A stretch of 57,563 nucleotides of DNA from an uncultured bacterium. GTDB lineage: Bacteria > Hydrothermota > Hydrothermia > UBA1063 > CAJXJZ01. Location: contig CAJXJZ010000002.1 in the NCBI GenBank assembly GCA_913055745.1, positions 1-57,563 on the forward strand, written 5' to 3'. The notes beneath the pieces were generated by a model. It did no database searches and was not told the origin of the DNA. It saw only the letters and a list, made by a program, of their open reading frames with translations. This document shows positions 53,912 to 57,563 of this stretch, one piece after another. The first letter of the stretch is position 1. Each line of letters starts with the position of its first letter. A program made the translations under genes and the position numbers.

Positions 53912-55663
53912 TCAAAATCTTTTAACTTTTACCTTTATTTCCTCTCCTGCTAAGAAGGGAAAATCAAGGCCCTTTATTCTGTCTTCTGGCATCACATAGA
54001 TGTCATAGTATTTTTTAGATAGGGGTGTTAGTTTTTGGGGACAGTATTCTACCTGGACCCTGTAGGAGCCAGGTGGCACATTTGAAAACTTATACTTGCC
54101 TTTTTTCCATGTCCATGTTCTTTTTCCATTCAAACTTACAATACATCCTTCAAGGGGCACATCATCTCCATCAAATACACCATCTACATTGTTGTCAATA
54201 AATAGTCTCCCCTCTACTTCTCCAAGGGCAGCAACCTTAAACTCCACATATTTTTCGCCTACGAACCCCACTGTTACATCCCTTTCATACCCATTCATTG
54301 GGCCCAATTCTGCTGGTAAGAGACCAAGATCTAATCGTATTTTGTGATGCCCTCTTGGAACAAATTTGAATGTGAAGTGTCCCTTTTTGTTGGTAAAGGT
54401 ATAATTATCGTTATCAAGTATTATTTTAACGCTATCTAATGGCTTGTCGTATTTATCATAAATACCATTGCCATTTTTGTCAAAATATACCTCTCCCTTT
54501 ATCGTGGATAAAGATGGTACTTTAAGGGGAGAATAAAAGTTTACCCCTGTTGAAAATTGCAGATTCCTGAGTGTATCTCTTGTATACAAATAAATGTTTT
54601 GAAGTAGGTTTAAACCGTGGAATTTAACGGTATTTCTGGATATAAAATACTGCCTTTTCTCTGAAAAGAAGTATACTGAGGAAGTGGAAAATTTGCCGAA
54701 GTCAAGTTGTGATGATATCCTTGAGCCTGTCTCGTTTTCATGTATGTCTCTTGAAAGTCTTATAACGAGAGGCTTTCTTCTAAAGGTTATGGAGTATGAT
54801 TTTCTTTTAGATATTATTGAAAAATTAAACAGCACACTATTCAATGACCTATTATAAGAAAAACCGGGTATCCATTTATTGGCGTAATTATAAAATAGGC
54901 TAAACTGGCCAAGTTTTGGGGAGTTGTATACAATATTATTACTTAGGGTGTATGTCTTATTCCCTCCCCTGTCTATAAAACCTGCTTGGTTGTTATAGAA
55001 TAGATGCTCAAATGCACGGAAGGAAAAAGAGGAGTTGATTGATAGAAATGGTGAAATTCTGCGTCCAGCGGCATAAAAGTTCTTAAAATACTTCGTTATA
55101 CTCATTGAAAGAGATGATTTTTCACCCTTTAACATTGCTCTTGTATAGAGTGCAAAGGATAGGTATGGTGATAGGCTCATTGCTCCTTCTATCTGAAAGT
55201 ATCTTTTGTTATATCCAGATACAAGATTTAGTGCGGTTTTCTCTGTTTTGTCTTTTGTGAGCAATGCCTTTCCATATATGGATTTTTTTTGAATGGATGA
55301 AAGAAGGGTAAAGGTGTTGCGAGTTGCCTTAAAATCCTCTTTAAATACGCCAAAGGAGAACTCAGGATTATAAAAATTTAGACCGATGTATTGCCATGGT
55401 AGAGATACGAGTCTTCCAATGTTTAGCCTTGTATGACCTATATGTATAAATCCAAGATAGTCCAGGGGAAATTGAAAAGAGACAGAGTTGATGGTGCTTG
55501 TTTTGTTATGTGAGAGATTAAGGGAGAGATTGAATATTGTGCTATTATTTCTTAATAACATATAGGCGTTTTTGTAATCGCTAAATAATGGCCTTTTCCC
55601 GTATGAATAAAAGCCAATATTCATTCTACCATAAGAGAGGACAAATAAAAACAGAACATACAT
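53912..55663 (-). CDS. Usher-like outer-membrane barrel with two C-terminal prealbumin/SdrB-like domains
   Basis: 583 residues: short signal peptide, a beta-barrel part (~15-400), then two small beta-sandwich domains. The first opens VEGR/KGEVYFDKNGNGIYDKYDKPL and the second VEGRLFIDNNVDGVFDGDDVPL. These SdrD_B/CarboxypepD-like modules, with DxNxDG loops, resemble the C-terminal domains found in ushers. Known ushers are ~800 residues with an N-terminal chaperone-binding domain and a plug inserted in the barrel; both seem absent. Its place directly after the chaperone-like gene (ATG one base after the stop) supports an usher-like role (inference). An alternative is an unrelated barrel anchor. 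Confidence 0.6.
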   Translation of the reverse strand: MYVLFLFVLSYGRMNIGFYSYGKRPLFSDYKNAYMLLRNNSTIFNLSLNLSHNKTSTINSVSFQFPLDYLGFIHIGHTRLNIGRLVSLPWQYIGLNFYNPEFSFGVFKEDFKATRNTFTLLSSIQKKSIYGKALLTKDKTEKTALNLVSGYNKRYFQIEGAMSLSPYLSFALYTRAMLKGEKSSLSMSITKYFKNFYAAGRRISPFLSINSSFSFRAFEHLFYNNQAGFIDRGGNKTYTLSNNIVYNSPKLGQFSLFYNYANKWIPGFSYNRSLNSVLFNFSIISKRKSYSITFRRKPLVIRLSRDIHENETGSRISSQLDFGKFSTSSVYFFSEKRQYFISRNTVKFHGLNLLQNIYLYTRDTLRNLQFSTGVNFYSPLKVPSLSTIKGEVYFDKNGNGIYDKYDKPLDSVKIILDNDNYTFTNKKGHFTFKFVPRGHHKIRLDLGLLPAELGPMNGYERDVTVGFVGEKYVEFKVAALGEVEGRLFIDNNVDGVFDGDDVPLEGCIVSLNGKRTWTWKKGKYKFSNVPPGSYRVQVEYCPQKLTPLSKKYYDIYVMPEDRIKGLDFPFLAGEEIKVKVKRF

Positions 55664-55664
55664 G

Positions 55665-56381
55665 CTATTTCATAAAGGATTTTACCCCCTCTATGGCATA
55701 AGGACCATGGAAATCTACTCTGAACTTTGCAACATATTGTCCTTTTTTTAAGGTATCCAAAGGAAAGGCCTTGTATATCGCCTTTTGTGGGAGAAGAAAT
55801 ATGCCTTTGACATCTTTTTGTAATATAGGTGATTTTTGGTCTTGCGCCTTAAAGATCTTTAATGTGCCGTTTGCCCTTATGTGTCTTATCCCAGGATTTA
55901 TAATCCTGAAATAAAGAGAGTCCTTTCTTATAAAAGAGGTATCAATATCACATTCAGGCATCGCTCCTATGGGTATGAGATAGAAGGGGACACCCACTTC
56001 TTTGACGAATCTTATGCCTGCATATTCAGGTAATGGAGGGGGCATCTGTTGGAATACAAGCATAAACCATTTCTCCTTACTCATATCCTCGGGTGTTTTT
56101 ACAGTTATTCTCACAGAGTATTCATCTTGGGGAGGTATTGAAAACTCTACAGGATTTATTATAACATCATTATCATTGTAGGAAGAGAACAATGTCTTTC
56201 CTGTGGAATCCTGATCAAAATGCTCTACATGTGAACGCACAAATAATGTATCTGAAGAGGCATTGATTAAGGTCACTTTCTTTGTTATTCTCTGACCTGG
56301 TGCGGCTTCCACCTCAAATAGAATAGGCCGCACTATCATGCCTTGTGCTATAAAGAGAAGTGTAAATATAAAACTATTCAT
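55665..56381 (-). CDS. PapD-like periplasmic pilus chaperone
   Basis: 238 residues: signal peptide, then two Ig-like domains. The first starts IVRPILFEVEAAPGQRITKKVTLINASSDTLFV, the pattern of fimbrial chaperones where strand G1 donates to pilin. The middle holds FSIPPQDEYSVRITV and WFMLVFQQMPP; the second domain begins near ~145 (DSLYFRIINPGIRHIRANGTLKI, as in the 'NPTPY' region of PapD). The subunit-anchoring Arg/Lys pair cannot be fixed by eye. The gene overlaps the preceding pilin-like gene by four bases (ATGA). It should fold and cap pilin subunits before they reach the usher-like barrel. Confidence 0.65.
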   Translation of the reverse strand: MNSFIFTLLFIAQGMIVRPILFEVEAAPGQRITKKVTLINASSDTLFVRSHVEHFDQDSTGKTLFSSYNDNDVIINPVEFSIPPQDEYSVRITVKTPEDMSKEKWFMLVFQQMPPPLPEYAGIRFVKEVGVPFYLIPIGAMPECDIDTSFIRKDSLYFRIINPGIRHIRANGTLKIFKAQDQKSPILQKDVKGIFLLPQKAIYKAFPLDTLKKGQYVAKFRVDFHGPYAIEGVKSFMK

Positions 56382-56929
56382 AATCCATAAAACCTTATAT
56401 ATACTGTAGTAGATACACCACCTGGTGGGGTGGGATTATCATCACTTTCAAGTTTAAAACACATATCCATATTATACTGTCTTTGTATAGACCTTCCAAC
56501 AATAGGAATCTCATCAACATTTGTCCATGTGAGAGTAAGGGGATGCCATGGATGCGCAGGCTCTGTGCCCGGTGGAGGCAGCGTCTGGGGATTTATTGTC
56601 CAATAGATTTGATCGCAGGTGATACTGGTTGAAGGATTTTGAGAGGCCCGAACATCAAGATAAGCATTGCTGATAGTTTGTCCAAATATATTGATTACCA
56701 TGACGCTTATTGAGACACCATTTGGATTACTCTGTGTTCCACTTGATGGAAAATAGCATGTAGGGTAAACTTTTGGTGGAAATCCTGGAGTATTGCCTAA
56801 GTCGAATGTTATATCAATATTTGAATTATTATTGTCAACTTGCATAATGATAAGACTAAGCGGGTAGAGTTTGAGAGGGAGGAAAAATAGGATTAAAAAA
56901 AAGAGGGGAAGTATAGCCCAATATCTCAT
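56378..56929 (-). CDS. Pilin-like subunit, second of a pair
   Basis: 183 residues with an N-terminal hydrophobic signal (~1-24, LPLFFLILFFLPLKLYPLS) and a beta-rich body. It shares with the next protein an SNPNGVSISVMV-type strand, a middle strand with a Thr- and Asp-rich turn, and a C-terminal acidic DDNPTPPGG motif followed by an alternating strand (TTVYIRFYGL). That resembles a donor-strand-exchanged Ig-like pilin. Two Cys (C in PTCYF and ITCDQ, plus MCF) may form a disulfide. An AAGGAGG site precedes the ATG. The family is not recognised by name. Confidence 0.6.
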   Translation of the reverse strand: MRYWAILPLFFLILFFLPLKLYPLSLIIMQVDNNNSNIDITFDLGNTPGFPPKVYPTCYFPSSGTQSNPNGVSISVMVINIFGQTISNAYLDVRASQNPSTSITCDQIYWTINPQTLPPPGTEPAHPWHPLTLTWTNVDEIPIVGRSIQRQYNMDMCFKLESDDNPTPPGGVSTTVYIRFYGL

Positions 56930-56951
56930 ACTTCCCCTCCTTTATAGTAGA

Positions 56952-57497
56952 TTATTGTGCGTATACCCTGTAATATATGTAAATCCCTGCATCCACTGGT
57001 TCGTCGTCCGCCTCTGCCTTAAACCGATAATCCTGGTTCTCATTCTGCCATCCACCGGTTTTATTTCCGCTGGCAATCTCTGTTGGGGTTGTACTAAATG
57101 CAGTCCATGAGCCTGCGCCCTGGGGTGAATATTCAAGTTGGTCTAAGGTAACTGTTGTACTAAAATCTCCACTGCCCCATGTCTCAAGATGCCATGTCAG
57201 TGTTGGAGAGTTTGAGAAAACCTTAACCCCTACACCGTTTGAGTTTTCTGTGGTACCTTCTGTTGGATTGTAATAGGCGGGGAAAGTGGTTGGAGGATAC
57301 GTCCCATTTGCAACATACTGATTGAAGTCAAATACAACAGAATCATTGCTGACTTGCAGACCAATAATAGATGGGAATATAATATGGACACGAGCGCTGT
57401 CCAGGAGTGTATCCTGTGGGGCTATACCTATGTTAAGCCCTGCATTGAGGCTTACCACCCATGCACCTATTATTATAGGTATTACCCACTTCTTCAT
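56952..57497 (-). CDS. Pilin-like subunit, first of a pair
   Basis: 181 residues with a signal peptide (~1-19, ending SLNAG) and a beta-rich body. It is paralogous to the following gene: NSNGVGVKVFS corresponds to SNPNGVSISVM, and the end DDEPVDAGIYIYYRVYAQ to DDNPTPPGGVSTTVYIRFYGL. There is no Cys, unlike its neighbour. A GAAGGGA site precedes the ATG. It is the first gene seen of the pilus-like operon; 66 bases upstream remain in the window, and more subunit genes may lie beyond. Secretion and a beta-sandwich fold are well supported; pilus assembly is inference from order. Confidence 0.6.
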   Translation of the reverse strand: MKKWVIPIIIGAWVVSLNAGLNIGIAPQDTLLDSARVHIIFPSIIGLQVSNDSVVFDFNQYVANGTYPPTTFPAYYNPTEGTTENSNGVGVKVFSNSPTLTWHLETWGSGDFSTTVTLDQLEYSPQGAGSWTAFSTTPTEIASGNKTGGWQNENQDYRFKAEADDEPVDAGIYIYYRVYAQ

Positions 57498-57563
57498 AGT
57501 TTATTCATCCCTTCAACTCATTGGGTGAAGAGCTTATAAATGATATAGATGCTCGAATTCACT

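Follow-up and report, generated by a model that had tools for sequence, protein, structure and literature searches.

Non-classical chaperone-usher (CU) pili, such as the archaic Csu and the alternative Ecp/CFA systems, combine pilin subunits with a PapD-like chaperone and an outer-membrane barrel, the usher. The subunits of these pili have a fold without the last strand and carry an N-terminal extension, and in known ushers, the N-terminal domain receives the chaperone. Another described arrangement is found in the WxL/WxLIP clusters of Gram-positive bacteria, where the partner is predicted to be strand-completed, with WxLIP filling the gap in the WxL sandwich with a hairpin (PMC10599100). Here, we analyze an operon at the end of a 57,563-nucleotide stretch of DNA, hereafter the window, from an uncultured bacterium of the candidate division WOR-3 (contig CAJXJZ010000002.1 of assembly GCA_913055745.1). 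The operon encodes pilin-like subunits, a PapD-like chaperone, and an outer-membrane barrel protein, and probably works like a chaperone-usher system, building a surface fiber by donor strand exchange; its membership in the CU family itself is not established. No description of such a system was found in the literature searched, of which the coverage was partial.

The window belongs to contig C2 of a 1.79 Mb genome in 63 contigs, and all genes of the operon lie on the minus strand. A previous reading of the sequence alone (hereafter the sequence-only reading) had proposed a four-gene operon in the order pilin-like, pilin-like, chaperone, barrel. The open reading frames bear out these four genes, their positions and their order; the gene count does not stand, because a third pilin-like gene is cut by the window edge, and when the contig is read past that edge, the complete order becomes A1, A2, B, chaperone, barrel. 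The A1 gene (C2:57518-58063, equivalent to L002:7519-8064; 181 aa) reaches into the window with its last 14 codons and the stop (57518..57563, the last 46 bases), and the A1 signal peptide is near-identical to that of A2. The other genes encode the secreted, pilin-like subunit A2, with an N-terminal extension (56952..57497; 181 aa); subunit B, an A paralogue without this extension and the putative tip (56378..56929; 183 aa); the PapD-like periplasmic chaperone, with two inferred domains (55665..56381; 238 aa); and the usher-like outer-membrane beta-barrel protein (53912..55663; 583 aa). A gap of 22 bases separates A2 from B, B and the chaperone gene overlap by 4 bases, and the chaperone and barrel genes are 1 base apart.

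Subunits A and B are homologous (the A-profile matches B of the window at 3e-21), in agreement with their earlier description as paralogs. The AlphaFold2 model of A2 (10 sequences, mean pLDDT 78.5) has an Ig-like fold whose last strand extends to residue 180 of 181, so that the modelled chain ends at the strand equivalent to F. The subunits are thus predicted to be devoid of the last strand, rather than to have a complete fold with no groove, as judged from the model and the alignments and not from inspection of groove coordinates. In the VIA structural ranking, the first matches to A2 are the fibril proteins TLP-1a and TLP-1b (PDB 9ikj and 9ikk; Z 8.1, 136 residues, 12% identity), pond-water filaments of the CryoSeek work. 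Next, within about 1 Z, come mostly CU pilins (FimG, FimA, PapA, CsuA/B; Z 6-7.2 over about 100-130 residues); further down the list, integrins and some other proteins are interspersed. The alignments to CU pilins reach the C-termini, as in strand-lacking pilins. Foldseek recovers CsuA/B as well (E 1.7e-2, probability 0.99). By sequence, the subunit profiles have no match in the PDB, and none of the 27 subunits scanned matches Pfam, including the WxL domain and the pilin families.

The extension of A2 includes a putative donor strand, residues 33-42 (DSARVHIIFP; 57372..57401, minus strand), where V37, I39, and F41 alternate. This pattern of alternating hydrophobic residues, mostly ending in proline, is conserved among the A-type subunits (VHIIFP in the window, TIDVQLLIP in the relative L075); residues 33-43 are not in a strand in the A2 model. 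In B, according to the alignment, the first core strand directly follows the signal peptide, and an extension of the A type is missing. Because such a subunit could receive a strand but has none to give, B is probably the tip. This assignment is safest for the genus of the window, the f18/f30 loci, and the L019/L020 group, given that the B proteins of families f20 and f14 are only weakly related.

The chaperone matches the Pfam family PapD_N (PF00345) with 25.5 bits (E 1.4e-5), above the curated cut-off of 23 bits, so the PapD-like character recognized previously holds. Among 27 chaperone relatives, PapD_N is found in 3, WxLIP_PGBD (PF06030) in 5, and fn3_5 in 7; the best PDB match of one chaperone profile is EfmWxLIP1 (E 7e-4), whereas a broader profile finds FAP81 first and then, below significance, EcpB, CsuC, and FaeE. 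Two elements align, weakly, with CU chaperones: the putative G1 donor strand at residues 127-137 (KEVGVPFYLIP; 55971..56003, minus strand) with RYSIPLF of CsuC, and Pro77 (56151..56153, minus strand), invariant in 27 of 27 relatives, with the proline region of CsuC and EcpB. A proline in that region has been described as invariant across the CU superfamily, and Arg89 as a hallmark of the archaic and alternative chaperones (PMC4654587). By sequence, the chaperone is a member of the PapD superfamily, but its branch is uncertain, WxLIP being no more distant than PapD, because the proline agrees with the CU superfamily, Arg89 is not conserved, and the matches are split.

The match to EfmWxLIP1 and the greater number of relatives with WxLIP_PGBD than with PapD_N would suit a different scenario, in which the PapD/WxLIP-like protein does not recycle as a chaperone but stays bound to WxL-like surface proteins in a non-polymeric complex, and the barrel anchors or displays this complex, with nothing threaded through it. 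Strand donation alone does not make a pilus, in view of the gap filling predicted for WxLIP (PMC10599100). We nevertheless consider such a complex unlikely. Inspection of the chaperone by eye, without a predictor, revealed neither a transmembrane helix nor a peptidoglycan anchor; the donor-like strand of the A subunits themselves, together with a paralogue that lacks it, suits a chain; and a barrel of about 26 strands, as modelled for L075, exceeds the needs of an anchor. The operon also differs from the WxL/WxLIP clusters in its diderm host, its outer-membrane barrel, and its subunits, which contain no Pfam WxL domain.

The barrel protein consists of a barrel domain (about residues 18-385; 54509..55612, minus strand) and two C-terminal domains (also minus strand), of which the first is SdrB/carboxypeptidase-regulatory-like, with a DKNGNG motif (54230..54499), and the second contains a DNNVDG motif (53915..54217). 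Pfam detects two SdrD_B stretches, bearing out the two SdrB-like domains of the sequence-only reading; the two domains are kept throughout the family, and the significant PDB sequence matches of the barrel profile are to SdrB-like domains, not to the barrel. At the extreme C-terminus of the barrel proteins is a conserved KxF (53915-53923 in the window, with an invariant F583). It resembles a signal for outer-membrane targeting, even though it terminates a domain other than the barrel. The AlphaFold2 model of the relative L075 (9 sequences; pLDDT 71, pTM 0.46) comprises 26 long strands (residues 26-454) followed by two sandwich domains, the same order as in FimD; the strands begin directly after the signal peptide, and there is no insert above about 20 residues in the barrel. 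A crude amphipathicity count gives 22-26 strands for the genus of the window, but the same thresholds yield 29-30 for the 26 strands of L075, and therefore, we estimate about 20-24 strands for the window barrel. Going by the L075 model, the barrel does not seem too small for a subunit, a finding that the sequence-only reading had named as grounds for refutation. In Foldseek searches with L075, FimD and PapC occupy ranks 1-12 (E 2.4e-15 to 2.7e-9), with LptD and TonB receptors lower, at about 1e-5 to 1e-4; in VIA, LptD and ushers have Z scores of about 13-14.4 and are interspersed with many other large barrels.

Several observations weigh against a mechanism of the chaperone-usher kind. The fold scores of A2 are modest: VIA Z values under 8 can reflect a common arrangement, and the Foldseek E-value is above 1e-3, so that the assignment of the pilin fold rests on the consistent family of matches. 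The carboxylate anchors of known chaperones (R8 and K112 in the classical, Arg89 in the archaic and alternative ones) are not conserved at the aligned positions, with glycine at the K112 equivalent and F, S, Y, G, and others at the Arg89 equivalent, in an alignment that is itself weak (E 0.15-0.9) and does not resolve the R8 position. The barrel model, with the pLDDT and pTM given above, is that of L075, a relative with roughly 20% identity. No match to Pfam Usher (PF00577) was obtained in the window barrel or in 100 genomes of the phylum, with a positive E. coli control, and neither an usher N-terminal domain nor a plug is apparent, as the sequence-only reading had pointed out, judging from the L075 model, with its first barrel strand at residue 26 and no larger insert in the barrel, and from the still shorter window protein. 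Finally, VIA ranks MtrB (Z 17.3) over ushers for the L075 barrel, and the ranking of ushers by Foldseek may reflect the general order of barrel and then sandwich domains; on this model, the two methods agree on a large barrel, and only Foldseek singles out ushers.

The gene order, which the sequence-only reading had proposed to look for in related genomes, is not a chance arrangement: three congeners have it, and so do many distant genomes. The named relatives belong mostly to the candidate division WOR-3 (NCBI name Caldifarciminota), consistent with the earlier placement of the operon outside Proteobacteria. With the window chaperone as a single query, relatives were found in 11 of 60 genomes, and a 12-member chaperone profile has matches in 39 of 147 genomes of the phylum, some of which are different, two-chaperone proteins. 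The loci that were read consist of one or more subunits, the chaperone, and, after it, a barrel protein of about 580-760 residues, the exceptions being cuts at contig ends and one orphan subunit-chaperone pair. This pair, a second copy in genome G053 (L024:5034-6270, equivalent to L079:5358-6594), consists of a B-type subunit and a chaperone, with no adjoining barrel or A subunit. With a barrel-only profile, from which the SdrB-like domains were left out, 15 of 15 solid matches adjoin a chaperone, and there is one further, marginal match, whose frame is interrupted by stops. Because the profile did not reach the genus of the window, the result applies to other branches of the family; in the genus itself, the adjacency is seen directly in the operons. 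Thus, the barrel domain was found only beside a chaperone, and homologs that never sit next to one, a concern of the sequence-only reading, did not surface. The barrel domains of the genus of the window show weak homology to the others, with 2e-4 to 8e-3 for the best links, and the profile comparisons between groups are mostly weak as well, with the f18 group linking the rest.

The top VIA rank of MtrB would fit a barrel that is unrelated to secretion, an MtrB-like conduit or a receptor, and adjoins a pilin-chaperone pair by chance or through co-regulation. Strict adjacency in all solid matches over distant genera, together with a similar order in Deinococcus, makes this highly improbable, and the MtrB match is confined to the barrel (model residues 52-453) and leaves out the C-terminal domains; an MtrB-type conduit was rejected on gene context. 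We attach slightly more weight, though still very little, to the possibility that the operon serves secretion only, with the chaperone keeping small proteins soluble and the barrel exporting monomers to the surface or the medium. The minimal gene set and the orphan pair without a barrel are compatible with simple export, but paralogous subunits with and without the donor-strand pattern, and a fold that matches polymerising pilins, are not what it would lead one to expect.

Subunit-chaperone-barrel operons extend to the Deinococcota, being present in a metagenome-assembled genome of Thermaceae (L083) and on plasmids of Deinococcus psychrotolerans, D. sp. NW-56, and D. sp. AB2017081, where the genes are annotated mostly as hypothetical. 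The plasmid operons (L088:4907-10653, L089:4950-10523, and L090:4851-10536) comprise four genes, for a subunit, the chaperone, another subunit, and a barrel protein of about 1010-1090 aa; in the Thermaceae genome, three subunits precede the chaperone and the barrel. Matches to the WOR-3 family have E-values of 2e-30 to 8e-27 for the Deinococcus chaperones and of 1e-20 to 4e-8 for the barrels, where the C-terminal domains account for at least part of the match. Unlike the window protein, the barrel proteins of Deinococcus and of the Thermaceae genome (978-1090 aa) carry N-terminal NEW3/Ig-like domains and extra C-terminal domains; N-terminal NEW3/Ig-like matches also occur in the WOR-3 barrel L071. 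It could be speculated that these domains stand in for the usher N-terminal domain.

The mechanism that we propose builds on what could be computed, namely, the gene set and order, the fold class of A and its missing C-terminal strand, the extension pattern and its absence from B, and the large barrel with two C-terminal domains in L075. The A-type and B subunits would enter the periplasm by means of their signal peptides, which were read by eye, each as an Ig-like domain without the last strand. The G1 strand of the chaperone would cap the subunit groove, and the subunit would then be handed to the barrel, which would serve as both gate and assembly platform in the outer membrane, presumably with the pair of C-terminal domains facing the periplasm. 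B would leave first, through the barrel, as the tip, and the A subunits would follow, each inserting its N-terminal strand into the groove of the subunit ahead with release of the chaperone.

We do not classify the operon as a CU system because the usher family, the N-terminal domain, the plug, and the carboxylate anchors were all looked for and not found; the SdrB-like C-terminal domains of the barrel and the host phylum set it apart as well. The stripped or divergent chaperone-usher machine of the sequence-only reading survives as a CU-like operon; reduction from a true usher is not established, given that no usher sequence family is detectable, the chaperone is equally WxLIP-like, and longer relatives exist. 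The short barrel form could have been reduced from the longer relatives with N-terminal Ig-like domains rather than from FimD or PapC. A bolder and rather doubtful proposition is that the WOR-3 and Deinococcota operons represent a separate class of donor-strand pili, with a gate not descended from ushers, a chaperone between PapD and WxLIP, and a chaperone-receiving domain that the short forms lack and for which NEW3/Ig-like domains substitute in the long forms.

Some observations concern the surroundings of these operons. Genes for tRNA-Cys and tRNA-Leu lie upstream of A1, and downstream of the operon is a block of thiamine/lipoate genes (named by reading the sequences) that is syntenic in two congeners and has no obvious link to the operon. 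In family f20 (L075:3152-12672 and the equivalent L076-L078), response-regulator and sensor-like genes flank the operon on both sides, which suggests dedicated regulation. A divergent locus (L070:1663-7392) encodes two A-like subunits and a distant chaperone, together with proteins of 662 aa (containing DUF11) and 587 aa (no Pfam match), and adjoins a type IV pilin-like gene. WOR-3 genomes also encode proteins of about 510-600 residues, mostly with two tandem PapD-like chaperone matches, directly followed by a protein of 420-540 residues (L066:5484-8483, L067:261-3206, L068:4537-7403, L069:3768-6826, L072:5565-8764, L074:38-2886, and G105:C125). The latter proteins are secretins by Pfam scan in L066, L067, and L069, and genome-wide secretin matches adjoin the other two-chaperone loci too; these pairs are possibly a chaperone-secretin system for surface fibers. 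In keeping with the proposed fiber, an outer membrane and visible pili have been described for a cultured isolate of WOR-3 (PMC12285271), although these pili are not linked to the operon.

If the proposed mechanism is correct, donor-strand pili extend well past the bacteria and the usher family usually considered for them and are overlooked by searches that use the Usher model. If the gate functions with neither N-terminal domain nor plug, it would indicate which parts of an usher are essential, and the intermediate position of the chaperone between PapD and WxLIP is relevant to the kinship of the strand-donating systems of Gram-negative and Gram-positive bacteria. The relatives in Deinococcus make the system testable in cultured bacteria. 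The gate matches no known usher family, so the operon may represent an unrecognized branch of pilus assembly.

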